NCBI GenBank assembly: GCA_035260525.1
Contig: DATFVB010000206.1
Location: forward strand, 1 to 47,097
Length of the DNA stretch: 47,097 bases
Reading direction: 5' to 3'
DNA from: Thermoanaerobaculia bacterium
Lineage (GTDB): Bacteria; Acidobacteriota; Thermoanaerobaculia; UBA5066; DATFVB01
Shown here in pieces: positions 6,679 to 25,940 of this stretch; position 1 is the stretch's first letter; every line of letters starts with the position of its first letter. A model generated the notes under the pieces. That model worked only from the letters and a program-made list of their open reading frames with translations. It was not told the origin of the DNA and ran no database searches. Made by a program: the position numbers and the translations under genes.

Positions 6679-8307
6679 ATGCCGAAGATCACGTTCCAGG
6701 ACGCCGAAACCCGCACCGTCGAAGTGCCCGACGGAACGAATCTGATCGAGGCCGCCAAGCTCGCCGGCATCGAGATCCCCCACTTCTGCTACCACCCGCG
6801 CTTCTCCGTCGTCGGCCAGTGCCGGATGTGCCTCGTCGAGATCGAGGGGATGCCGAAGATCCAGGCCGCCTGCACGACGCCGATCAAGGACGGCATGGTC
6901 GTCAAGACCGGCTCGCAGAAGACGAAGGATGCGCAGAAGGGGACGATGGAGTTCCTCCTCATCAACCACCCCCTCGACTGCCCGATCTGCGACCAGGCGG
7001 GAGAGTGCAAGCTCCAGGACAATTCCTTCGGCTACGGGTTCCAGCAGTCCCGCTACGACGAGCGCAAGAAGCAGTACGAGGGCTATTCGCGGACGAAGAT
7101 CGGCCCGCGGGTGATCGCGGACATGACCCGCTGCATCCTCTGCACCCGCTGCATCCGGTTCACCCACGAGATCGCGAAGACCGGAGAGCTCACGTTCCTC
7201 GACCGCGCCGGCACGACGCTCGTCTGGACGCACGAGGGGCGCGAGCTCGACAACGACTGGTCGGCGTGCGCCGCCGACGTCTGCCCGGTGGGGGCCTTGA
7301 CCGTCGAGGAGTTCCGGTTCCGGCAGCGGGTCTGGTACCTCAAGAAGACGCCGTCGGTCTGCTTCGGATGCGACATCGGCTGCAACAACACGATCGAGTC
7401 GCGCGGCGGCGTGGTCTTCCGCTCCATGCCGCGGCTCAACCCCGAGGTCAACGATTACTGGCTCTGCGACCACGGCCGGTTCCTCGCCGAGAGCTTGAAC
7501 GAGCGCGTCTACACGCGGCCGCTCGTCCGCGAGGGGGGCGACGAGAAGACCCTCCCGTGGGACGCGGCAATCGAGCGGATCGCGTCGCGGATCCGGGAGA
7601 CCGTCGCGGGCCCCGGCCCCGGGGCGATCCTCGCCGTCGGCTCTCCGTTCCTCTCCAACGAGGAGAACTGGCTGCTCCGGAGGCTTTTCGCGGACACGCT
7701 GCACGTCCCGAACATCGACGTCTCGGCGGACGCCGATCGCGTGCGCCGCATGCCCTCGAAGAGCGGATGGATCGAGAGCTCGGGGCTCGCGGCGCCGAAT
7801 CTCAAAGGGGCGCGGGACGTCGGGGTGGCCCCCGCGGCGAGCGGAAAGGGGCTCGCCGCCCTCTTCGACGGCCGCTTCACTCCCGAGATCGTCTACGTCG
7901 CCGACGCCGCGTGGTCGAAGGACGCCGACAACCCGGACCGCGTCGCGGCCCTGCGCCGCGCGAAGCTCCTCGTCGTCCACGCCCGCACGGAAAACCTCCT
8001 CACGCGCGAGGCGGACGTCGTCCTGCCGGCGGCCTCCCTCGCCGAGAAGGAGGGGACGTTCACGAACCGCTTCGGCCGCGTGCAGCGGTTCGAGCGCGCG
8101 ATGCTCGCCCGGCCCCCGGTCAAGGCCGACTGGGAGATCCTCCTCCTCCTCTCCCTCGCGCTCGGATTCGGGGACCCCTCCTGGAACCCGATCTCGATCT
8201 ATTCGCTCCTCGCCGCCGAGATTCCCGGCTACGCGGTCGACGAGGAGGTCTTAGACGGCGGGTTGACGATGAAGAAGGGACTCTTCGTCGCCGAAGGAGG
8301 ACTGTGA
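6679..8307 (+). CDS. nuoG: NADH-quinone oxidoreductase subunit G
   Basis: A 542-residue iron-sulfur subunit of the NADH arm. The N-terminal [2Fe-2S] domain has C37, C48, C51 and C65. Then come the HPLDCPICDQAGEC region (N5, with a His ligand) and the [4Fe-4S] set CILCTRC with CAADVCPVG (N4). C228-x2-C231-x3-C235-x27-C263 is the spacing of the extra N7 cluster known from some bacterial NuoG. The C-terminal molybdopterin-oxidoreductase-like domain is short: total length is well below the roughly 780-910 residues of Thermus or E. coli NuoG. Only its last part (READVVLPAASLAEKEGTFTN) is easily recognised. A 205-bp repeat-filled spacer precedes it. The stop overlaps nuoH (GTGA). Confidence 0.95.
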   Translation: MPKITFQDAETRTVEVPDGTNLIEAAKLAGIEIPHFCYHPRFSVVGQCRMCLVEIEGMPKIQAACTTPIKDGMVVKTGSQKTKDAQKGTMEFLLINHPLDCPICDQAGECKLQDNSFGYGFQQSRYDERKKQYEGYSRTKIGPRVIADMTRCILCTRCIRFTHEIAKTGELTFLDRAGTTLVWTHEGRELDNDWSACAADVCPVGALTVEEFRFRQRVWYLKKTPSVCFGCDIGCNNTIESRGGVVFRSMPRLNPEVNDYWLCDHGRFLAESLNERVYTRPLVREGGDEKTLPWDAAIERIASRIRETVAGPGPGAILAVGSPFLSNEENWLLRRLFADTLHVPNIDVSADADRVRRMPSKSGWIESSGLAAPNLKGARDVGVAPAASGKGLAALFDGRFTPEIVYVADAAWSKDADNPDRVAALRRAKLLVVHARTENLLTREADVVLPAASLAEKEGTFTNRFGRVQRFERAMLARPPVKADWEILLLLSLALGFGDPSWNPISIYSLLAAEIPGYAVDEEVLDGGLTMKKGLFVAEGGL

Positions 8308-9344
8308 GCGCCGCCGACTGGGTGATCGTCGTGCTGCGGCCGCTCGTCCCCGTCCTCGGGGCCGCGATGGCGGTCCCCGTCCTCACGTGGGCGGAGCGCC
8401 GCGGGGCGGGCCTCATCCAGGACCGTCCGGGGCCCAACCGGGTCGGGTTCTTCGGCTGGCGCGCGTTCGGGCTCGGCCAGCCCCTGGCCGACGCGCTCAA
8501 GTTCTTCTTCAAGGAGGACATTACGCCGGACAACGCCGACGCGTTCCTCTACACGCTGGCGCCCTGGATCGTCATGTTCTCCGCGCTCGTCGGCTTCGCC
8601 GTCATCCCGTACGGGCCGCCGATCCCGATCGCGGGGAGGATCGTCCCCCTGGTCGGCGCCGACGTGCCGATCGGCGCGCTCTTCATCTTCGCGATGACGG
8701 GGCTCTCGGTCTACGGGATCGTGCTCGCCGGCTGGTCCTCGAACAACAAGTACTCCCTGATGGGCGGCTTCCGGTCCGCCGCGCAGGTCATCTCCTACGA
8801 GCTCGCGATGACGACGGCCGCGGCGGGAGTCTTCCTTTCCTCGTCGTCGCTCCGGCTGACGCGGGTCGTCGAGGCGCAGCACGCATCGTTCCTTCGGTGG
8901 AACGTCGTCCCGCAGTTCTTCGGCTTCGTCGTCTTCACGATCGCGGCGTTCGCCGAGACCAACCGCGTGCCGTTCGACCTCGCCGAAGCCGACGCGGAGC
9001 TCGTCGGCGGCTACCACACCGAATATTCCGCCTTCAAGTTCGGCGCGTTCTTCATGGCCGAGTACATCGCGATGACGGTCGGATCCGCGTTCATCGTCAC
9101 GATGTACTTCGGCGGGTGGTCGCTCCCGTTCTTCCACCCGACCGGCCTCTTCGGCGGCCTCGTCTCGGTCGCGGTGTTCGCCGCGAAGACGGCCTTCTTC
9201 CTCCTGGTCTTCATCTGGGTGCGATGGACGCTCCCCCGCTTCCGCTACGACCAGCTGATGAGGCTCGGGTGGAAGGTCCTCCTTCCGCTCGCGTTCGCGA
9301 ACCTCCTCTGGACCGCCCTCCTGGTCCGAAGCGGGGTGCTGTGA
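8304..9344 (+). CDS. nuoH: NADH-quinone oxidoreductase subunit H
   Basis: A 346-residue membrane subunit with about eight helices, forming the quinone chamber and linking the peripheral arm to the membrane arm. Signature segments are ERRGAGLIQDRPGPNRVG (about residues 29-46), LADALKFFFKEDITP and AETNRVPFDLAEADAELVGGYHTEYS, the latter carrying the conserved acidic loop at the quinone site. The start is GTG in a 4-bp overlap with nuoG. nuoI, which usually follows, is absent; nuoJ overlaps its stop instead. Confidence 0.97.
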   Translation: MSAADWVIVVLRPLVPVLGAAMAVPVLTWAERRGAGLIQDRPGPNRVGFFGWRAFGLGQPLADALKFFFKEDITPDNADAFLYTLAPWIVMFSALVGFAVIPYGPPIPIAGRIVPLVGADVPIGALFIFAMTGLSVYGIVLAGWSSNNKYSLMGGFRSAAQVISYELAMTTAAAGVFLSSSSLRLTRVVEAQHASFLRWNVVPQFFGFVVFTIAAFAETNRVPFDLAEADAELVGGYHTEYSAFKFGAFFMAEYIAMTVGSAFIVTMYFGGWSLPFFHPTGLFGGLVSVAVFAAKTAFFLLVFIWVRWTLPRFRYDQLMRLGWKVLLPLAFANLLWTALLVRSGVL

Positions 9345-17561: not shown

Positions 17562-18163
17562 CTCCGCCCGGGCCGCGCGGCATCCTGTTCGACATGGACG
17601 GGGTGCTGATCTTCTCGACCGAGGCGTGGTTCGGGGTCTACAACGACACGCTCGCCCATTTCGGACACCCGCGCATCGGGCGCGAGGAGTTCCTGCGCAT
17701 CTTCGGCAACGGGACGCAGGCGGACCGCGCGGCGTACATGCCGGAGCGGAGCGTCGAGGAAATCGATGCCGCGTACCGCCGCTTCTTCGCGGAGCGCCTG
17801 GGCGACATCGCGCTCAATCCGGAAGCCGCCCCGGCGCTCGTCCGGCTGCGGGAACGCGGGGTGAGGACGTCGCTCGCGACCAACACGAACCGCGGTCTCG
17901 CCGAGGCGATCCTCGGCCGGCTGGGCGTCGCCGGTCTCCTCACCGCGTTCGCCTGCGCGGACGAGGCCGGCGCGGGCAAGCCCGATCCGGCGGTCGTCCG
18001 CCTCGCCGCGGATCGGCTCGGACTGGCGCTTTCCGATTGCGTGATGGTGGGCGACTCGCGGTACGACGAGGAGGCGGCGCGCGCCGCGCCGGTCGCGTTC
18101 CGCGGCTACCGCTACGGCGACGCTCCTACTCGGATCGAGGCTCTTTCCGAAATCGCCGGTTGA
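17558..18163 (+). CDS. HAD-superfamily phosphatase (phosphoglycolate-phosphatase-like)
   Basis: A 201-residue hydrolase with all four HAD motifs: FDMDGV (nucleophile Asp and acid Asp, about residues 11-16), LATNTN (motif II), GKPDP (motif III Lys) and MVGDSRYDEE (motif IV). A helical cap of about 60 residues sits between motifs I and II, as in Gph/beta-phosphoglucomutase relatives. The substrate cannot be assigned. GTG start overlapping the previous stop. Its 3' end overlaps the convergent regulator gene by 38 bp. Confidence 0.85.
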   Translation: MTPPGPRGILFDMDGVLIFSTEAWFGVYNDTLAHFGHPRIGREEFLRIFGNGTQADRAAYMPERSVEEIDAAYRRFFAERLGDIALNPEAAPALVRLRERGVRTSLATNTNRGLAEAILGRLGVAGLLTAFACADEAGAGKPDPAVVRLAADRLGLALSDCVMVGDSRYDEEAARAAPVAFRGYRYGDAPTRIEALSEIAG

Positions 18164-19127
18164 ACTCCCGCTCGAGACCGTACTCCTTCACCTTGTTGTA
18201 GATCGTCTTCAGCGAGAGCTTCAGCATCTCCGCGGCCTTCCTCTTGTTCCCCTTGGCGAACCGGAGCGTCCGCTGCAGCACGCGGCGCTCGACGTCCGCC
18301 ATCGAGTCGCCGATCCGGACGGCGACGATCTCCTTCTCCGAGGGGCCGTCCGCGCCGTCCCGCTCCGAGCGCGCGGAGACGCCGCCGAGCACCGACTGGA
18401 TCGCCGTCAGGCCGATGATCGGCCCGTCGGAGAGGGCCCGGGCCCGCCGGATCACGTTGCGCAGCTCGCGGACGTTGCCGGCCCACTCGTGGGCCGCCAT
18501 CGCGTCGAGAGCCTTCGGATCGATCGCCGGCTCGGCGCCGTCCCGGGAGCCGGCCTGCCTCAGGAAGTACTCGGAGAGGAGCGGGATGTCCTCGCGGCGC
18601 TCTCGCAGCGGAGGCACGGCGATCGTCGCGCCCGCCCGCTGCGCGATCGCGGGGTCGAGTCTCCCCTCGATCGTCGGCTCGCGCGGCGAGAGCACCACGA
18701 GCCTCGCCGCTCCGGGGGCGTCGGCGGCCTCGGCGGCCAGGCGCTGGAGCGCCGGCGACGCATGGACGATCCCCTCGAGCACGAGCGTCCCGGACGTTCG
18801 CGCCGCCTCCGCGATCTCGCCCGGGGCGACCGGGGCGCCGCGCGGATCGAAGACGATCGAGCGGATCGCCTCCCGGCCTCGCGGCGAGAGACGGTGGAGC
18901 GCGGCCGCGACGGTCCGCTTCCCCGCCCCGCTCTCTCCCGCGACCACGGCCACTTCGCGGCGCGGGGCCGCGGCGAAGATCTCGTCGAACAGCGCCTGCA
19001 TCGGCACGGACCGGCCCACGAGCCCCGCGAGCGGCCCGCCGGCGCGGGCGAGCGAGCGCCGGAGATCCTCGACCTCGGCGAGCAGCTCGTCGACGAGCCG
19101 GGTCCCGTCGGAAAGAAGGGGTTCCAT
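18126..19127 (-). CDS. NtrC/Fis-type regulator with degenerate AAA+ domain
   Basis: 333 residues. A short N-terminal helix (about 1-35) stands in place of a receiver domain. An AAA+ region follows (about 36-250) with a Walker A-like GESGAGKRT and the NtrC-family C-terminal part (PPLRERREDIPLLSEYFL, WAGNVRELRNVIRRA). Last is a Fis-type helix-turn-helix (RFAKGNKRKAAEMLKLSLKTIYNKVKEYGL, split across about 290-320). The sigma54-contacting GAFTGA loop is missing and the Walker B segment reads GTLVLEGI instead of GTLFLDE-type. It therefore probably binds DNA but cannot remodel sigma54 holoenzyme. A TACAAT lies 6 nt before the ATG. Its target is unknown. Confidence 0.8.
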   Translation of the reverse strand: MEPLLSDGTRLVDELLAEVEDLRRSLARAGGPLAGLVGRSVPMQALFDEIFAAAPRREVAVVAGESGAGKRTVAAALHRLSPRGREAIRSIVFDPRGAPVAPGEIAEAARTSGTLVLEGIVHASPALQRLAAEAADAPGAARLVVLSPREPTIEGRLDPAIAQRAGATIAVPPLRERREDIPLLSEYFLRQAGSRDGAEPAIDPKALDAMAAHEWAGNVRELRNVIRRARALSDGPIIGLTAIQSVLGGVSARSERDGADGPSEKEIVAVRIGDSMADVERRVLQRTLRFAKGNKRKAAEMLKLSLKTIYNKVKEYGLEREFNRRFRKEPRSE

Positions 19128-19168: not shown

Positions 19169-19918
19169 TCAGCGCCGGGGCGGCGCGAGCGCCTCCTCTT
19201 CGGGAAGCGGACGCAGGTCCGAAGCGGCGACGCGCAGGCGCGGCCGGCGGGGGTCGGCGAGGTCGATCTCGCTCCAGAGGGCGATCCGCCCCTTCGGTTT
19301 CCGCCGGCCGAAGAGGCGCGTCCCGGCCGCGAGCCGCTCGAGCAGCGCGGCGGGGCCGATCCGGACGTCGCGCGCGAACCAGTCCGCGCCCCTCTTTTCG
19401 GCGCGCACCTCCTCGAGCCGGCCGATCGTGCGGTTGTTCTTCGCGCGGACCCGCCGTCCGAGCGCGAGCTCGAGGCGGATCTCGCCGGGCCGCTCCTCGA
19501 TCCGGACGGGCCGGCGCGCGTCGTCCGGCCCGGTCCGCGGCGCGCCGGCCCCCGACCCGGGGATCCGTCCGACGACCCGTTCGGCGAGCCAGCGTTCCCC
19601 GGCGCGGAGGGGGGTCTTCTTCGCGTCGACGTCGAGCTTCACCTCGAGGCCGATGTCCAGGATCTCCCGAAAGGCGACGCGGCAGGAGCGCAGGAGCGGC
19701 GCCTTCCAGCGGCCGGACACGCGCTCGATCGCGCGGGCCCACCGCCCGTTCAGTCGCCGGGCGAGCGTCGGAAATCCCGCCTCGATCGCCTCGAGCCGCC
19801 CCGACGCCGCCGCGACGACCCCGTCCGCTTTTCCGACCTTCTCTCCGTTGCGGTCGGTCAGCTGCTTGTCGAGGACCTCCTGGAAGAGGTCGAGGCAAGG
19901 GGGCTCGGCCGCGCTCAC
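19169..19918 (-). CDS. PRC-barrel-like cytoplasmic protein, partner of Nramp-like transporter
   Basis: A 249-residue soluble protein with no signal or membrane segment. Residues about 8-40 (LDLFQEVLDKQLTDRNGEKVGKADGVV) look like a PRC-barrel strand pair, and a second similar piece occurs at about 155-185 (RVRAKNNRTIGRLEEVRAEK). The C-terminal part resembles nothing I know. GTG start 6 nt after the transporter stop; last gene of the oxidase block. PRC barrels occur as regulatory modules next to or inside metal transporters such as MgtE, so control of the neighbouring transporter is plausible but inferred. The barrel assignment itself is from short motifs. Confidence 0.6.
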   Translation of the reverse strand: MSAAEPPCLDLFQEVLDKQLTDRNGEKVGKADGVVAAASGRLEAIEAGFPTLARRLNGRWARAIERVSGRWKAPLLRSCRVAFREILDIGLEVKLDVDAKKTPLRAGERWLAERVVGRIPGSGAGAPRTGPDDARRPVRIEERPGEIRLELALGRRVRAKNNRTIGRLEEVRAEKRGADWFARDVRIGPAALLERLAAGTRLFGRRKPKGRIALWSEIDLADPRRPRLRVAASDLRPLPEEEALAPPRR

Positions 19919-19924
19919 GCCGCT

Positions 19925-21133
19925 TCAGCTCCCGAGGATCTCGAGGGGGATCGCCACGAGCGCCATCGCCGCGCCGACGGCCGTGATCCCGACCACCATC
20001 GCGTTTCCGAAGGGCCCGTTGCCGTGGCGGCCGACGTAGAGCGGGTCGTTCATGATGACGATGAACGGGAAGACGATGATCGGCTGGACGAGCACCGTCA
20101 GCGCCATCGAGATCATCGTCAGCTTCAGCGGGTCGATGCCCGAGACGATCACGAGCGCCGCGACGGCGATCACCGCCGTGTAGACGAGCGCGAACCGCGC
20201 CTCGCGCTTCGGGCGGACATCCTCGCCCCAGTTCCAGCCGAGCTGCTGGGCGGCCGCGTACGCGAGGTTCAGCGCGATCTCGAGGGCCGCGCCGAAGCAC
20301 CCGAAGCCGAGGATCGCCGCGAAGAGCGGCACGCCCCACCGGCCGAACGGAGGGACCAGCGTCTGCGCCACCTGATGGAAGCTCTTGACGTCGACGCCGG
20401 CGAGGACGACCGCCGAGCAGACGAGAACCGCCGCGTTGACGACGCTCCCGAAGCCCATCCCGGCGATCGCGACGACGCGGTTGGCCGGGATGTCCTTCGG
20501 CTTCCAGCGCTCCTCGACCGCGCCGGACGCGTAGAAATTCACGAGATACGGGCTGACGGTCGCGCCGAGGATGCTGACGGCGAGCAGGCCGTACTTCGCC
20601 AGGCTCGCGCGGGGAAACGAGGGGACCAGCCCCGAGGCCACGGCGCGGGCGGAGGGATGCAGCCGGACGACGGCGACGACGAAGGCGAGCGAGACGAGCC
20701 CGAGGAGCGACACGCCGTTCTCGATCAGCCCGAAGCTCCCCTTCCAGAGGAGGAACCAGGTGGCGAAGGCGGCCGGCAGCACCCACCACCCGCGCCCGAC
20801 GGACGTCGCGAGCTCGACGGCGATCGCCGCCCCGCCGAGCTCCGCCGCGAGGACGAGGGTGTCGAGGACGATCTCGGCCGCGAGCGGGACCGCGGAGAAC
20901 CGGAAGCCGAACCGCTCGCGCACCGCGTCGGAGACGGTGTGCCGGCTCGACGCCGCGAGCCGCCCCGACATCTCGACGAGCGCCACGAGGCAGATCGTCG
21001 CCGCCGCGATCGCCCAGAGGAGCCGGAAGCGGAACGCGGCGCCCGCCTGCGCGGCCGTCGAGATCGAGCCGACCTCGAGGAACCCGGCCATGCTGGTGAC
21101 GATCCCGAGGGCGATCTTCAGGAAGGACTTCAA
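19925..21133 (-). CDS. Nramp-like divalent metal transporter homologue with atypical site
   Basis: A 402-residue membrane protein with about 11 helices, resembling the Nramp fold in length and helix layout. The TM1 stretch that is DPGN in classical Nramps reads here MAGFLEVGSIST, and the TM6 metal-binding MPH region reads ATVSPYLVNFY. Both key metal ligands (Asp/Asn and Met) are therefore replaced, as in Nramp-related carriers with other substrates. The TTG start overlaps the ctaG stop (TTGA); an ATG 42 nt upstream, inside ctaG, is an alternative. It is followed 6 nt later by the PRC-barrel-like gene. Substrate unknown. Confidence 0.72.
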   Translation of the reverse strand: MKSFLKIALGIVTSMAGFLEVGSISTAAQAGAAFRFRLLWAIAAATICLVALVEMSGRLAASSRHTVSDAVRERFGFRFSAVPLAAEIVLDTLVLAAELGGAAIAVELATSVGRGWWVLPAAFATWFLLWKGSFGLIENGVSLLGLVSLAFVVAVVRLHPSARAVASGLVPSFPRASLAKYGLLAVSILGATVSPYLVNFYASGAVEERWKPKDIPANRVVAIAGMGFGSVVNAAVLVCSAVVLAGVDVKSFHQVAQTLVPPFGRWGVPLFAAILGFGCFGAALEIALNLAYAAAQQLGWNWGEDVRPKREARFALVYTAVIAVAALVIVSGIDPLKLTMISMALTVLVQPIIVFPFIVIMNDPLYVGRHGNGPFGNAMVVGITAVGAAMALVAIPLEILGS

Positions 21134-22002
21134 CTCGCTTCGCCGCCGGCTCGCCGCTCGGATTCGCGGAGCCATCCTCCGACGAGCCCCATCCCGCACA
21201 CGACGAAGACGAGCCCCGCCGGGACCCACATCCAGAGCCCCGCGAGCTGCTGGTCCTCGAGGGCTGCCGCGCCGGCCAGTCGCCGGCCGTATGCCGGGTA
21301 CCAGAGCGTGGGGGCGACCGTCATCAGGGCTCCCAGCAGCGCGCCGTGGAACGCGGTGCCGAAGAGCGACACCGCCTCGGCGCCCACCGCGATCCTCCCG
21401 CGCGCGCCGGCGAGGACGGCCGACCAGTAGAGGAGGGCGGCGGCGAGGAAGGTCGCGTGCTCGGCGGCGTGCACGGTCTCGCTCCGGAGAGCCGCCTGAT
21501 ACAGCGAGGGCAGGTGCCAGGTCCAGAGGGACAGCGCGAAGACGACCCACGCGAACACCGGGTGCGCCGCGGGCCGGGCGAGCGCGTGCCCTCCCCGGCC
21601 GATCGCCCGGCGCGGGCCGCTCCCGAAGGCCCAGAGAAACGCCGTGGCGGGCCGGCCGAGCACGAGAAGCGGCGCCGCGACGAGCATGATCAGCTCGTGC
21701 TGCGCCATGTGCCACGAGAGCCGCGCCTCGCCGAGCTCGTGGATCGGGGAGACGAGCGCGGCCGCGAGCGCCGCCCATCCGGCGGCGAAGGAGACCGCCG
21801 CCCGGACCCCGATCCCCGCGCCCGTTCCCGCGCGCCGCCAGAGACGCCGCACGCCGACGACGTATGCGACGCCGCAGACCGCGAGGGCCGCGACCACGGC
21901 GGGCGGAAACGTCCATCCGGCCCCGCCGCTCCCGGCCGTCTCGTGCGCTCCGGCGGGCGCGGCGGCGGAGAGCGCGGCGAGAGCGAAGATCGTCCTACGC
22001 AC
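21130..22002 (-). CDS. ctaG: Cytochrome c oxidase assembly protein CtaG (caa3 type)
   Basis: A 290-residue membrane protein with an N-terminal signal-like helix and about seven helices. Conserved histidine-rich pieces of the Caa3_CtaG family are visible: WHMAQHELIMLVAAPLLVLG, LWTWHLPSLYQAALRSE and HAAEHATFLAAALLYW. The family is needed for assembly of caa3 oxidase, probably of its copper site. GTG start overlapping the small membrane protein gene by 8 bp. The stop overlaps the transporter gene. Confidence 0.9.
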   Translation of the reverse strand: MRRTIFALAALSAAAPAGAHETAGSGGAGWTFPPAVVAALAVCGVAYVVGVRRLWRRAGTGAGIGVRAAVSFAAGWAALAAALVSPIHELGEARLSWHMAQHELIMLVAAPLLVLGRPATAFLWAFGSGPRRAIGRGGHALARPAAHPVFAWVVFALSLWTWHLPSLYQAALRSETVHAAEHATFLAAALLYWSAVLAGARGRIAVGAEAVSLFGTAFHGALLGALMTVAPTLWYPAYGRRLAGAAALEDQQLAGLWMWVPAGLVFVVCGMGLVGGWLRESERRAGGEAS

Positions 22003-22333
22003 ACGGCCTCAGCATCAGCTTCGGCACCTGCGCGGCGAGGATCACCAGCACGAACATGGCGCCGAGCGCCATCCCCGCCACGCCGAGGAACCGCTCGGCG
22101 CGCGCGCGCGGCAACGGATCCCCCTTCGCGCCGCGGTACGTCGCCCACGAGGCCGCGATGCCCGCCAGCGCCGCCGCGAGCGCGACGGCCGTCGCGCCGT
22201 GCAGGAGCAGCCGGTCGCCGCGAAGACACGACTCGCCGACGAGCGAGTCCGAAAGCGACAGGTCGGCGAGCCACGCGACCGGCGGGAGCAGCACTCCCGT
22301 CCAGGCGACGGCCGGCCGCGCGGCGCCGTTCAC
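21995..22333 (-). CDS. Small membrane protein of the caa3 oxidase operon
   Basis: A 112-residue protein with three predicted helices (about 8-28, 46-70 and 82-106) and two Cys (in ESCLRGDR and at the C-terminus RPCA). It does not resemble subunit IV. Similar three-helix proteins with a PPVAWLADL-like first helix sit beside caa3 oxidases elsewhere; that is from recollection. GTG start overlaps the subunit III stop by GTGA. It is likely an assembly factor or accessory subunit. Confidence 0.7.
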   Translation of the reverse strand: MNGAARPAVAWTGVLLPPVAWLADLSLSDSLVGESCLRGDRLLLHGATAVALAAALAGIAASWATYRGAKGDPLPRARAERFLGVAGMALGAMFVLVILAAQVPKLMLRPCA

Positions 22334-22938
22334 AGCAGCCTCGGCGCGGCGTAGACGACCGCCGCGCCGGCGACGCCCGCCGCGACGAGGAAGTACCAGA
22401 AGAAGGCGTCGGCGCGCACGTCGGTGAAGTCCTTCTCCTTCACCGGTCCGAGCACGAACACCGCGAGGACGACCCCCGTCTCGATCACGGCCGCCAGAGT
22501 GTCCCCGCCGTGAAGAACGAGGATCGCCCAGTTGATCGAGGCGTAGGCGTTGGCGCTCCACCGGCAGCCGAGGCCGCGGAACTCGAAGGCGCGGAGCGCG
22601 ATGAACGCCGCGCCGAAGAGCAGGTTCGCGGCGAGCCCCGCACGGATCCGCCCCCGACGCGCCCCGGGCCCCTTGCTCGCCTCGCGCTCCGCGATCCGGA
22701 ACGGGATGCAGCTCATCAGCAGCACGGCGACGTTCGCGATCCCGAAACGCAGATCGGGGAGCGGCATGCCGGGCGGCGGCCACTCGCGCGCCGTCATGCG
22801 GTAGTAGAAGTAGCTCCAGAAGGCCATCGCGAAGGTCGTGCTCTCGATCGCGATGAGGCCGAGGTTCGCCCAGACGACCAGGGCGCGGTGATCGTAAACG
22901 TGCTCCGGGAGGCGGGCGACGTCGACTTCGGCGCTCAC
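22330..22938 (-). CDS. ctaE: Cytochrome c oxidase subunit III
   Basis: A 202-residue protein with five helices, the short form of subunit III. Typical parts are FWSYFYYRMTAREWPPPG near the N-terminus and RAFEFRGLGCRWSANAYASIN, whose Glu corresponds to the conserved EF residue. The late FTDVRADAFFWYFLVAAGV matches the last helix region. GTG start overlapping the subunit I stop. Confidence 0.93.
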   Translation of the reverse strand: MSAEVDVARLPEHVYDHRALVVWANLGLIAIESTTFAMAFWSYFYYRMTAREWPPPGMPLPDLRFGIANVAVLLMSCIPFRIAEREASKGPGARRGRIRAGLAANLLFGAAFIALRAFEFRGLGCRWSANAYASINWAILVLHGGDTLAAVIETGVVLAVFVLGPVKEKDFTDVRADAFFWYFLVAAGVAGAAVVYAAPRLL

Positions 22939-24881
22939 GCGTTCTCCTCGCGCGCCGGAGGCTGCGGCTCCCCCTTCGGCCAGAACCACCCCGTCATCGC
23001 GACCGCCGAGAGCGCGGCGGACACGACGAACGCGCGTGCCTGGAAGATCCCCCAGGTCAGCCCGAGGCCGACGGAGAGCGCCATCAGGAAAGGCCACACC
23101 GACGGGCCGGGGAGCGTGGGACGGTGGTCCGGTTCGGCGTCGAGGGGGCGCGTCACGAGCACCTGCCGCCGGTCCTCTTGGATCCCGGCGACCACCGGCG
23201 CCTCGGGCGACCGGCACCAGAGCGCCTCTCTTCCCTCGACGACCGGAAGGCGCTCGAAGTTGTACGGCTCCGGCGGCGACGCCGCGGCCCATTCGAGGGT
23301 GGACGCTCCCCAGGGGTTCTCTCCCGGCTCTCCGCGCCGGCGGCTGCGCACGACGTTGACGAGGAAGACGAGGACGCTCGCGGCGATCACCGCCGCGCCG
23401 ATCGACGCGAGCATGTTGAGCGGCCCCCATCCCGTCTCCGGCCGGTAGGTGTAGACGCGCCGGGGCATCCCGTGCAGCCCGAGGACGTGCATCGGGAAGA
23501 ACGTCAGGTTGAATCCGACGAAGAAGAGGGCGAAGTTCCAGCGGCCGAGGACCTCCGACATGCGGCGGCCGGTCCACTTCGGATACCAGTGGTAGATCGC
23601 GCCGAAGAGCGGGAACACCGCGCCGCCGATCAGCACGTAGTGGAAGTGGGCGACGACGAAGAACGTGTCGTGCACCTGGAGGTCGAGCGGCACGGACGCG
23701 AGCATGACGCCGGTCAGGCCGCCGATCACGAAGATGAAGACGAACCCGAGGACGAAGAGGAGCGGCGTCGTCAGCCGCGGCCGTCTCCCCCAGAGCGTCG
23801 CGATCCAGCAGAAGATCTGGACCCCGCTGGGGATCGCAATCATCATGCTCGCCGCCGTGAAGAAGCTCGAGCCCATCTGCGGCAGCCCCGTCGCGAACAT
23901 GTGATGCACCCAGAGGCTGAAGCCGAGGAACGCCGTCGACACGAGCGAGAGGACCATCGCCGTGTAGCCGAAGACCGGCCGCCGCGCCGCGGTCCCGACG
24001 ATCGTCGACACGAACCCGAGCGCGGGGATGAAGATGATGTACACCTCGGGGTGGCCGAAGAACCAGAAGAGGTGCTGCCACAGGAGTGGGTCGCCGCCCG
24101 AAGCCGGGACGAAGAACTGCGTCGCGACGAGGCGGTCCATCGCGAGAAACCCGCTCGAGATCATCACGGCGGGCATCGCGAAGAGGATCATGAAGGACGT
24201 GACGAGCATCGCCCAGACGTAGAGCGGGAGGCGATGGAGCGACATCCCGGGGACGCGCTGCTTGAAGATCGTCGTGATCAGCTCGATCGCGACCACGAGC
24301 GCGGAGATTTCGGTGAACGTGATCATCTGCGACCAGATGTCGACTCCCTTGTCCGGCGAGAACGCCCGCTCCGAGAGCGGCGTGTAGGCGAACCACCCCG
24401 CCTGCGGTCCCGCGCCGAGGAACACGCCCGTGTACAGGAACAGTCCGCCGACGAGGTACATCCAGTACCCGAAAGCGTTCATCCGGGGGAACGCGACGTT
24501 GCGCGTGCCGACCATCAGCGGCACGAAGTAGACCGCCATTCCCTCCATGACCGGGACGGCGAAGAGGAACATCATCGTCGTCCCGTGCGTCGTGAAGAAC
24601 CGGTCGTACCGGTCGGGCGAGAGGAACCGGTTCTCGGGAACCGCGAGCTGGATCCGCATGAGCGCCGCCTGGATCCCGCCGAGCAGGAAGAAGAAGAACG
24701 CGGTCGCGACGTAGCGCTTTCCGATCTCCTTGTGGCCGACGGCCGTGAAGAAGCCGCGCAGTCCGGGAGGCTCTCTCCAGGTCTCGCGCAACGTCGCCCG
24801 CTCCTCAGCGGCCGCGGCGTGAGCGCGGGTCTCCCGACGCTCACGGCCGGCGGGAGCGCGGCCCGGCGTCGGGGCGCTCAC
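22935..24881 (-). CDS. ctaD: Cytochrome c oxidase subunit I
   Basis: A 648-residue heme-copper oxidase subunit I. Residues for heme a, heme a3 and CuB are visible: THGTTMMFLFAVPVMEG (low-spin heme His), WFFGHPEVYIIFIPALG (CuB His and cross-linked Tyr), HDTFFVVAHFHYVLIGG (heme His pair), and WVHHMFATG (two CuB His). HPEVY with Tyr marks an A-type oxidase. The C-terminus extends beyond the 12 core helices with a long soluble loop and two more helices (about 590-640), as in Bacillus-type subunit I. GTG start overlapping the subunit II stop. Confidence 0.96.
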   Translation of the reverse strand: MSAPTPGRAPAGRERRETRAHAAAAEERATLRETWREPPGLRGFFTAVGHKEIGKRYVATAFFFFLLGGIQAALMRIQLAVPENRFLSPDRYDRFFTTHGTTMMFLFAVPVMEGMAVYFVPLMVGTRNVAFPRMNAFGYWMYLVGGLFLYTGVFLGAGPQAGWFAYTPLSERAFSPDKGVDIWSQMITFTEISALVVAIELITTIFKQRVPGMSLHRLPLYVWAMLVTSFMILFAMPAVMISSGFLAMDRLVATQFFVPASGGDPLLWQHLFWFFGHPEVYIIFIPALGFVSTIVGTAARRPVFGYTAMVLSLVSTAFLGFSLWVHHMFATGLPQMGSSFFTAASMMIAIPSGVQIFCWIATLWGRRPRLTTPLLFVLGFVFIFVIGGLTGVMLASVPLDLQVHDTFFVVAHFHYVLIGGAVFPLFGAIYHWYPKWTGRRMSEVLGRWNFALFFVGFNLTFFPMHVLGLHGMPRRVYTYRPETGWGPLNMLASIGAAVIAASVLVFLVNVVRSRRRGEPGENPWGASTLEWAAASPPEPYNFERLPVVEGREALWCRSPEAPVVAGIQEDRRQVLVTRPLDAEPDHRPTLPGPSVWPFLMALSVGLGLTWGIFQARAFVVSAALSAVAMTGWFWPKGEPQPPAREENA

Positions 24882-25843
24882 CGGAGGTGCTCCAGCCAGC
24901 CGAGCAGCGCCGGGAGATCCCGGGAGGCGATCGCGTTGGGCGGCATGGCGGCGCCGGGCTTCGCCTTCTGCGGGTCGAGCACCCAGCCGGCGAGGTGCGC
25001 CGCGTCGTTGGCGAGCGTCCCCGCCCCGATCGTCTCGCGCGCGCCGACGTGGGTGAGGTCGGGCCCGAGCGTCCCGGCGGCCGGCGTCCCGCGGACCGTG
25101 TGGCACAGCGGGCAGGAGGAGGAGACGAAGACGTCGCGGCCGCGCTCCTGGAGGGCGCCGTCCGGCGGTGCCGCCGGCGCCCGCTGCGCGGCGAGCCAGG
25201 ACTCGAATTCCGCTTCCGGCTGGGCGACGACGAGAAACGCCATGTGCGCGTGCTGGACGCCGCAGTACTCCGCGCACTGGCCTCGGTAGACGCCGGGACG
25301 GTCCACGCGGAAACGCGTCAGGGTCCATCGGCCCGGTATCAGGTCCTTCTTTCCGTCGACGTTGGGCGCCCAGAAGCTGTGGATCACGTCGCGGGACGTG
25401 GCGCGGAGGAGCACGGTGCGCCCGACCGGCACGTGGATCTCGTTGGCGGTCACGACCGTGTCGGAGGGGGACGGGGACGGGTAGCGGACCTCCCACCACC
25501 ACTGGCGGCCGAAGAGCTCGATCGGCAGCCCGGCCGGGTCGTCCCGCGACGGGGACGCCGTCTTCCCCGTCGACATGCTCGCGACGAGGAAGACGAAGAG
25601 GATCACGACGGTCGTGACGGCACCGGCCGCGACCGCCGCTTTCCGGCGGCCCTCGGCCGGGGGGGGCCCCGGAAGGAGATCGGGCTCGGCGCTGCGGCGG
25701 CGTGCGAGCGCCGCCGCGAGGAGAACCAGCACGGCGACGAAAACGGCGCCGCAGACGCCGAGTACGAGCCACCACAGCGCCGCAATCGACCCGGCCTGCG
25801 GCCCGGCCGGCGCGAGCACCGAAGATGCGATGCCTCCCGCCAC
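24878..25843 (-). CDS. ctaC: Cytochrome c oxidase subunit II with fused cytochrome c (caa3 type)
   Basis: 321 residues: an N-terminal signal/anchor region, a second helix (about 70-92), the CuA cupredoxin domain and a covalent-heme domain. CuA ligands are H155, C190, C194, H198 and M201 (in GQCAEYCGVQHAHM). The cytochrome c motif is C244-PL-C247-H248 with a candidate axial Met in AAMPP (M300). The fused heme domain defines the caa3 class, which accepts electrons directly from a reductase or soluble cytochrome c. GTG start chosen for the GGAGG just upstream; a TTG 27 nt earlier is possible. It lies 97 bp after ubiD with no obvious promoter. Confidence 0.94.
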   Translation of the reverse strand: MAGGIASSVLAPAGPQAGSIAALWWLVLGVCGAVFVAVLVLLAAALARRRSAEPDLLPGPPPAEGRRKAAVAAGAVTTVVILFVFLVASMSTGKTASPSRDDPAGLPIELFGRQWWWEVRYPSPSPSDTVVTANEIHVPVGRTVLLRATSRDVIHSFWAPNVDGKKDLIPGRWTLTRFRVDRPGVYRGQCAEYCGVQHAHMAFLVVAQPEAEFESWLAAQRAPAAPPDGALQERGRDVFVSSSCPLCHTVRGTPAAGTLGPDLTHVGARETIGAGTLANDAAHLAGWVLDPQKAKPGAAMPPNAIASRDLPALLGWLEHLR

Positions 25844-25940
25844 ACTCCCTCCGCCGCGGAGACGAAGCAAGAAGCGTGCGCGAACGTCGACGTGTGCGGG
25901 CGCGGGAACCGAGAGCGACGCCGCGCGGCCGTCGGCGCGC

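Follow-up and report, generated by a model that had tools for sequence, protein, structure and literature searches.

A clade of Nramp-related carriers recurring with two PRC-barrel modules, in several lineages beside genes of caa3-type oxidases

The window analyzed here, a stretch of 47,097 nucleotides of contig DATFVB010000206.1 from a Thermoanaerobaculia bacterium, carries a run of seven minus-strand genes in the order coxB, coxA, a subunit III-like gene, a small membrane protein gene, ctaG, an Nramp-related carrier and a double PRC protein. The first gene of the operon, coxB (24878..25870), encodes an oxidase subunit II that ends in a cytochrome c domain, as in the caa3 type (Pfam COX2 and Cytochrom_C), and coxA (22935..24881) encodes subunit I (Pfam COX1, 508.7 bits). 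The oxidase subunit III-like protein (22330..22938) has no Pfam match and was recognized by tblastn, through a gene of locus L128 annotated as cytochrome c oxidase subunit 3 (1.7e-24). The small membrane protein (21995..22333, 112 aa), also without a Pfam match, overlaps both of its neighbors, and ctaG (21130..22002; PF09678, Caa3_CtaG, 182.9 bits) encodes the caa3 oxidase assembly factor. They are followed by the carrier (19925..21133, 402 aa, TTG start; PF01566 and structural model) and by the operon's last gene, which encodes the adjoining double PRC protein (19169..19918, 249 aa, GTG start). The junctions are overlaps of 4, 4, 4, 8 and 4 nt and then a single gap of 6 nt, and the carrier and its PRC partner are therefore members of the caa3-type oxidase operon. 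The layout is as the original prediction had described it: the pair ends an overlapping chain from coxB to ctaG, the TTG start of the carrier at 21133 shares 4 nt (TTGA on the minus strand) with the ctaG stop, and the partner gene begins at 19918, 6 nt past the carrier stop. The same start residue is found in homologs of the carrier. Directly behind the operon lies a gene for a Fis-type regulator with an AAA lid and HTH_8 (18126-19127, minus strand), whose weak Sigma54_activat match (25.3 bits, 52 of 168 positions) suggests that it is perhaps sigma-54 independent by now.

The carrier matches the Pfam family Nramp (PF01566) with 185.5 bits, against a cut-off of 29.8, and falls far below the NCBIfam cut-offs for MntH models. 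In the residue alignment with DraNramp, TM1 reads GFLEVGS in the carrier and AYMDPGN in DraNramp, and TM6 reads GATVSPY and GATVMPH, respectively, so the DPGN and MPH metal-binding signatures are absent, as had been noticed before. The nearest solved structure by sequence is EleNRMT, a Mg2+/Mn2+ carrier (E 6.3e-30; DraNramp, E 4.5e-18), and a profile of the clade described below gave 3.3e-50 for EleNRMT and 7.3e-33 for DraNramp. The AlphaFold2 model of the carrier (pLDDT 89.2, pTM 0.90) matched Nramp structures with Z 33-50, the best being EleNRMT (Z 49.9), followed by DraNramp (Z 47.4) and BfraNramp (10ky, Z 46.6). With helix breaks at 17-20 and 193-194, the model has the LeuT-type fold with unwound TM1 and TM6 by which the Nramp superfamily is recognized.

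The predicted ion site of the carrier consists of E20-V-G-S23 in TM1 and A191-T-V-S194-P-Y196 in TM6, together with the TM3 glutamate E98. Residues were counted in 87 of the 91 aligned rows (L009, L010, L128 and L129 were excluded for being repeats, plasmid copies or surplus, and L008 was left out as too short). Position 20 is acidic in 86 of the 87 sequences (Glu 67, Asp 19, Gly 1) and position 98 is Glu in 86, while position 94, aligned with the TM3 aspartate of DraNramp that has a role in proton movement, is Val in 82. Position 23 is Ser in 64, Ala in 18, Asn in 3 and Gln in 2 and never Gly, position 191 is never Thr, position 194 is Ser in 73, Thr in 8, Ala in 5 and Gly in 1 and never Met, and position 196 is Tyr in 77, Ser in 5, Phe in 3 and His in 2. 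Published signatures are DxxN (TM1) and A/CxxM (TM6) for Nramps, and DxxG and TxxA/T for NRMTs (PMC8806188). The ExxS-AxxS site of the carrier is neither of the two, so the substrate is not readable from it. Assignment as a canonical Nramp/MntH was ruled out by the EVGS and ATVS site, the lack of Met194 (0/87) and the NCBIfam scores below cut-off, and assignment as a plain NRMT by the ExxS-AxxS site, the lack of Gly23 and Thr191 (0/87 each) and a separate clade in the tree.

In this tree of 71 rows, the carriers formed a group of 33 rows (support 100), the stem of which measures 1.43 changes per column. A second group, of 30 rows, combined EleNRMT with NRMTs from related genomes and with DDDPSG-type proteins, and DraNramp and the DPGN proteins made up the third. 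The window genome (G000) has two Nramp-related genes, of which the second (L002) is among the DDDPSG-type proteins in the group of EleNRMT. Because a quick tree method was used and long branches meet, the branching order of the three groups is tentative. The separateness of the clade also appears in the scores, which are 600-717 bits for its members and at most 206 bits for other Nramp genes of the same genomes. By sequence comparison, then, the carriers form a supported clade of their own outside canonical Nramps and NRMT. Cellier describes an outgroup adjoining NRMT (PMC9606685, PMC10606218), and Ray and colleagues describe several Nramp-related groups, most of them uncharacterized (PMC12873925); judged by these descriptions, the present clade may equal one of those groups.

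The partner comprises a first module, PRC1 (residues 1-125, 19544..19918, minus strand), fused to a second, PRC2 (residues 139-249 and stop, 19169..19504, minus strand), which has 30-49% identity to separate PRC2 genes of relatives. Against PF05239, the window partner scored 15.1 bits, below the cut-off of 21.2 (E 0.023, residues 14-49), and with a threshold of E <= 0.01 the relatives gave matches to the family for 7 of 38 PRC1 modules and 14 of 38 PRC2 modules. A search with the partner against NCBIfam gave nothing useful, and its best E-value among sequences of solved structures was only 0.32; a viral fold library was likewise uninformative. An alignment mixing fused and single proteins put PRC1 rows on the second module, so the model was limited to PRC1 rows and two fused proteins (separate PRC1 genes of 38 relatives had been aligned); in this model module 2 came out poor and PRC1 was confident, with residue blocks 11-115 at 81-96 pLDDT (module about 90). 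The best Foldseek and VIA-align matches of PRC1 were nearly all PRC-type barrels, including two heterodimers from Archaeoglobus, CdpB1/CdpB2 and PRC1/PRC2 (8qzo, 8onw), MTH1859 (1pm3), reaction-centre H subunits, and RimM and CdvA, which hold such barrels. As the E-values are modest (best 1.9e-3) and Z reaches at most 8.8 (8onw; 1pm3, 8.7), we base the PRC assignment on fold and family profile pointing the same way, and by these two lines module 1 is a PRC barrel. The PRC fold predicted for PRC2 follows from its profile match to module 1 (P 1.2e-8, 79 columns). A partner that is non-PRC or absent elsewhere was ruled out by the PF05239 matches of relatives and the structural matches of PRC1. 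The archaeal CdpB1/CdpB2 proteins share with the partner the PRC fold and the combination of two different PRC proteins, there in a heterodimer; unlike the partner, they are cell-division proteins, and we know of no carrier gene beside them. The reaction-centre H subunit, a PRC barrel that sits on the cytoplasmic side of a membrane complex for electron transfer, resembles the partner with Z 5-6, but the identity is only 7-15% and it comes without a carrier.

To see how far the pairing recurs, a neighborhood search was performed. The PRC protein as a query matched in 8 of 60 related genomes, the window genome included, and the carrier was directly upstream of the match in 8/8 loci examined from the other seven. 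A seed alignment of carriers found via their PRC partner was then used to scan a collection of species genomes, and the best 80 of 133 related stretches, together with five further loci, gave 85 loci (L025, L037, L100, L101 and L104 are places also found under other ids in earlier searches); members without a PRC partner may sit among the 53 stretches outside the best 80. Both PRC modules lie directly downstream of the carrier in 84 of the 85 loci, mostly at gaps of -4 to +3 nt, the exception being L096, in which the sequence ends 35 bases behind the carrier match. This recurrence ruled out chance neighborhood. The modules are two separate genes in 83 of the 84 loci; the fused form occurs in L078 (Phycisphaerales) and the window. 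The original prediction of a soluble partner with two PRC modules thus stands as to the PRC nature, supported by the fold of module 1 and the profile matches of relatives, while the single two-module protein is an exception. The expectation that the pair recurs was borne out, and neither a failure to recur nor profile evidence against a PRC barrel came out. In relatives, the small genes of the set are annotated as hypothetical proteins.

The best 80 of the 133 stretches include 53 from Pseudomonadota (40 of them Mesorhizobium), 16 from Cyanobacteriota, 3 from Acidobacteriota, 3 from Gemmatimonadota, 2 from Planctomycetota, 1 from Verrucomicrobiota, 1 from Rokubacteria and 1 without a phylum, and the pairing spans at least seven phyla. 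Few Acidobacteriota have the carrier: at E 1e-90 it was found in 5 of 297 genomes, the window genome among them. The patchy spread suggests horizontal transfer.

In addition to the carrier and the PRC modules, a small gene of one family was detected upstream of the carrier in 75 of 82 loci, sharing 4 nt with the carrier start in 64 of them. A simple pattern search found a lipobox-like motif in 55 of these 75 genes, and we refer to them as putative lipoprotein genes. A profile built from Mesorhizobium and Rhizobium only also detected the gene outside these genera, at E 1.7e-7 or better, in 16 cyanobacterial loci and 8 loci of other lineages (24 in all), and it is present in three further acidobacterial loci. 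The seven loci without a small gene at that place include all four of Paraburkholderia as well as L036 and L074, in both of which ctaG is close to the carrier. Similarly, no putative lipoprotein gene was found in the window or the rest of its genome (best E 0.058), and ctaG occupies its place. Its absence from the window genome means that the lipoprotein is not essential to all members.

CtaG is present in 64 of the 80 carrier genomes (best 80 of 133 loci). In these 64, its distance from the carrier is at most 2 kb in 6, at most 10 kb in 28 and at most 40 kb in 41, where chance alone would give about 0.5% per genome for 10 kb. Among 67 other Nramp genes, taken only from the first batch of 50 genomes, which included all oxidase-bearing loci, 4 were within 10 kb of CtaG (Fisher P 3.7e-7 against 28/64, a count that uses all 80 genomes, the other 30 having been added later; the comparison was also computed with 22/40). 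As 40 of the 80 loci are from Mesorhizobium, the counts are not independent, whereas the binomial P computed for this proximity takes the genomes as independent; without this genus, CtaG is within 10 kb in 7 of 24. Same-strand oxidase genes directly upstream of the carrier were found in five loci (L025, L036, L038, L074 and L128), belonging to Acidobacteriota, Gemmatimonadota and a Rhizobium plasmid, so that the caa3-type oxidase neighborhood first noticed in the window recurs in several phyla. No CtaG (Caa3_CtaG) was found in any of the 16 cyanobacterial genomes with the carrier, and in Paraburkholderia (4), Planctomycetota (2) and Verrucomicrobiota (1) it was never within 10 kb. With 16 of 80 loci cyanobacterial and lacking any CtaG gene, the system cannot serve caa3 oxidases exclusively. 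The oxidase association is real but not universal.

A further link to respiration was detected in five Mesorhizobium loci (L057, L065, L068, L072 and L075), in which the PRC2 frame has no stop of its own and reads on into a membrane anchor and dihaem cytochrome c (at about 7580-8866; Pfam was run on L057). The length of the join is identical in all five, and an in-frame ATG is kept at codon 102, so a second, shorter product of the frame is possible. The same dihaem cytochrome is a separate neighboring gene in L084 and L128. The genome of L065 (G352) has two carrier copies, each with a CtaG gene less than 8 kb away. Two Nramp-related genes of another group (L160 and L161, genomes G350 and G353, with DDDPSG and DDDCSA sites) lie 1.2 and 4.2 kb from CtaG.

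The closest known systems are the NrmT/NRMT carriers (CabNRMT, EleNRMT; PMC4072509, PMC8806188), which likewise belong to PF01566, lack DPGN and MPH and, as seen in relatives, adjoin a gene with two PRC modules. According to Shin and colleagues (2014), most NrmT genes adjoin a gene resembling the N-terminal portion of MgtE, the role of which was unknown (PMC4072509). In relatives of the window genome, an MgtE_N gene was found within 0.8 kb of the NDAGG-type NRMT genes in 9/9 cases, and this partner opens with two PRC modules (Pfam PRC 28.9 bits, two stretches). In profile comparisons these matched PRC1 (P 9.6e-5, 84 columns, probability 58) and PRC2 (P 7.7e-6, 49 columns, probability 84); the matches are good, though not strong, and point to a shared regulatory part, of which the clade seems to hold a PRC-only counterpart. 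The clade differs from NRMT in its site (ExxS-AxxS, not DxxG-TxxA/T), its separate place in the tree, a partner of PRC modules without an MgtE_N or CBS part, and the lipoprotein gene in most loci. No MgtE_N gene was found beside clade carriers: it is on another contig or more than 80 kb away in the seven other relatives, and the window genome has none. By its published description, Acp2976/Acp2977 of Acidobacterium capsulatum is also an acidobacterial Nramp-related carrier with a small soluble partner, but there the partner is described as an MgtE cytoplasmic domain and the carrier rescued a Mn2+ defect (PMC4072509). The Clade B protein BfraNramp (10ky) is described as keeping the TM3 glutamate and lacking proton-path residues, like the present carrier, but it retains DPGN and MPH (PMC12873925).

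The statement in the original prediction that such a pair would be new was too strong: in the part of the 2014 paper available, an Nramp-related carrier is already paired with a partial MgtE, a partner that likewise has two PRC modules, although they are not named there (PMC4072509). Through NrmT, an Nramp-related carrier with a PRC-bearing partner is therefore a known kind. Among openly licensed papers, we found no description of an Nramp and PRC-barrel pair as such, nor of the clade, its PRC-only two-gene partner, the lipoprotein or the oxidase association, and a word search of two papers on oxidase gene clusters found no mention of Nramp or PRC (PMC9145763, PMC6431628).

The recurring gene set, often beside an oxidase, suggests a dedicated carrier complex. 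The reading we favor, tentatively and as a little short of probable, is a multi-part carrier of hard divalent cations (Mg2+ and/or Mn2+), probably proton-uncoupled, with a PRC regulatory dimer. The carrier would most likely pass the cation inward down its gradient without proton coupling, the E20 carboxylate, the S23 and S194 hydroxyls and E98 replacing the Asp-Asn/Met site; the soft methionine is missing in 87/87 sequences, and the acid at position 20 and the TM3 glutamate are each kept in 86/87. Proton-path residues are reported to be lacking also in BfraNramp and EleNRMT, which are proton-uncoupled (PMC12873925 and PMC8806188). The two PRC barrels, in one chain in the window, would probably form a heterodimer docked on the cytoplasmic face and adjust the carrier, and the two-PRC heterodimers 8onw and 8qzo are among the top structural matches of PRC1. 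In most relatives, as gene order suggests, a small periplasmic lipoprotein would complete the complex. In the window genome and several other lineages, expression with a caa3-type oxidase may let cation uptake follow the respiratory state.

As to the cation, Mg2+ is favored by the resemblance to EleNRMT and by the window genome (98% complete), in which no match to CorA (PF01544) or MgtE_N (PF03448) was found, while CorA was found in 14/14 control genomes; lacking these two importers, it must take in Mg2+ by other means. However, no magnesium or manganese riboswitch was found in the window or in the 24 loci searched, and the one acidobacterial NrmT tested is described as carrying Mn2+, and Mg2+ not with high affinity, with no help from co-expression of its partner (PMC4072509). 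Taken together, these results leave the cation between Mg2+ and Mn2+.

Co-location without any direct link, in which the carrier operon and the caa3 oxidase are starvation or stress genes sharing accessory islands, is a less probable explanation that deserves weight. The carrier gene is on 21 plasmid records, Mesorhizobium neighbors include ferritin-like, DUF892, DUF3618 and DUF4142 genes, carrier and CtaG are 0.8 to 39 kb apart in this genus with varying orientation, and the caa3 oxidase of P. aeruginosa is expressed under starvation, according to PMC5436846. This explanation fits poorly with the translational overlap with ctaG in the window, the tight same-strand order in several phyla and the in-frame PRC2-cytochrome fusion. 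The same observations, with the place of carrier and partner at the end of a fully overlapping caa3 operon, the excess of nearby CtaG over other Nramp genes and the cytochrome neighbors in two further loci, speak for a complex that serves the oxidase itself, by supplying or positioning a metal, for instance the Mg2+ or Mn2+ bound between oxidase subunits I and II, or through coupling to electron flow via PRC2 and a cytochrome c. A mature oxidase is described as holding a tightly bound Mg2+ (PMC9145763). Nevertheless, it is not obvious how a metal imported into the cytoplasm would get to the oxidase site, the cyanobacterial and Paraburkholderia loci do without a CtaG nearby, and the supporting counts lean on Mesorhizobium, so we consider service to the oxidase unlikely. 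More speculatively, and with still lower probability, lipoprotein, carrier and PRC1-PRC2 might be one membrane complex on the caa3-type oxidase or its cytochrome c, a respiration-coupled carrier in which cation entry is adjusted to electron flow and the PRC pair acts much as the reaction-centre H subunit. That the protein is no metal importer, but a receptor-like or exporter relative that has another substrate and the PRC pair as structural subunits, is improbable: the site has lost both known signatures, a long stem leads to the clade and most Nramp-related groups are described as uncharacterized (PMC12873925), but nearly all members keep the acid and hydroxyl site residues and the TM3 glutamate, and the carrier model still shows the two helix breaks that belong to the Nramp site.

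With these results, a so far nameless branch of a well-studied family of carriers becomes a defined and testable system, namely a carrier clade with its own predicted ion site, two PRC barrels and a putative lipoprotein, whose genes stay together in Cyanobacteria, rhizobia, Acidobacteriota, Gemmatimonadota and others. The system suggests that PRC barrels may act as subunits of a carrier, a candidate function for them, and bears on the role of the partial MgtE partner of NrmT. It also points to a recurrent genomic link between predicted cation uptake and haem-copper oxidases.
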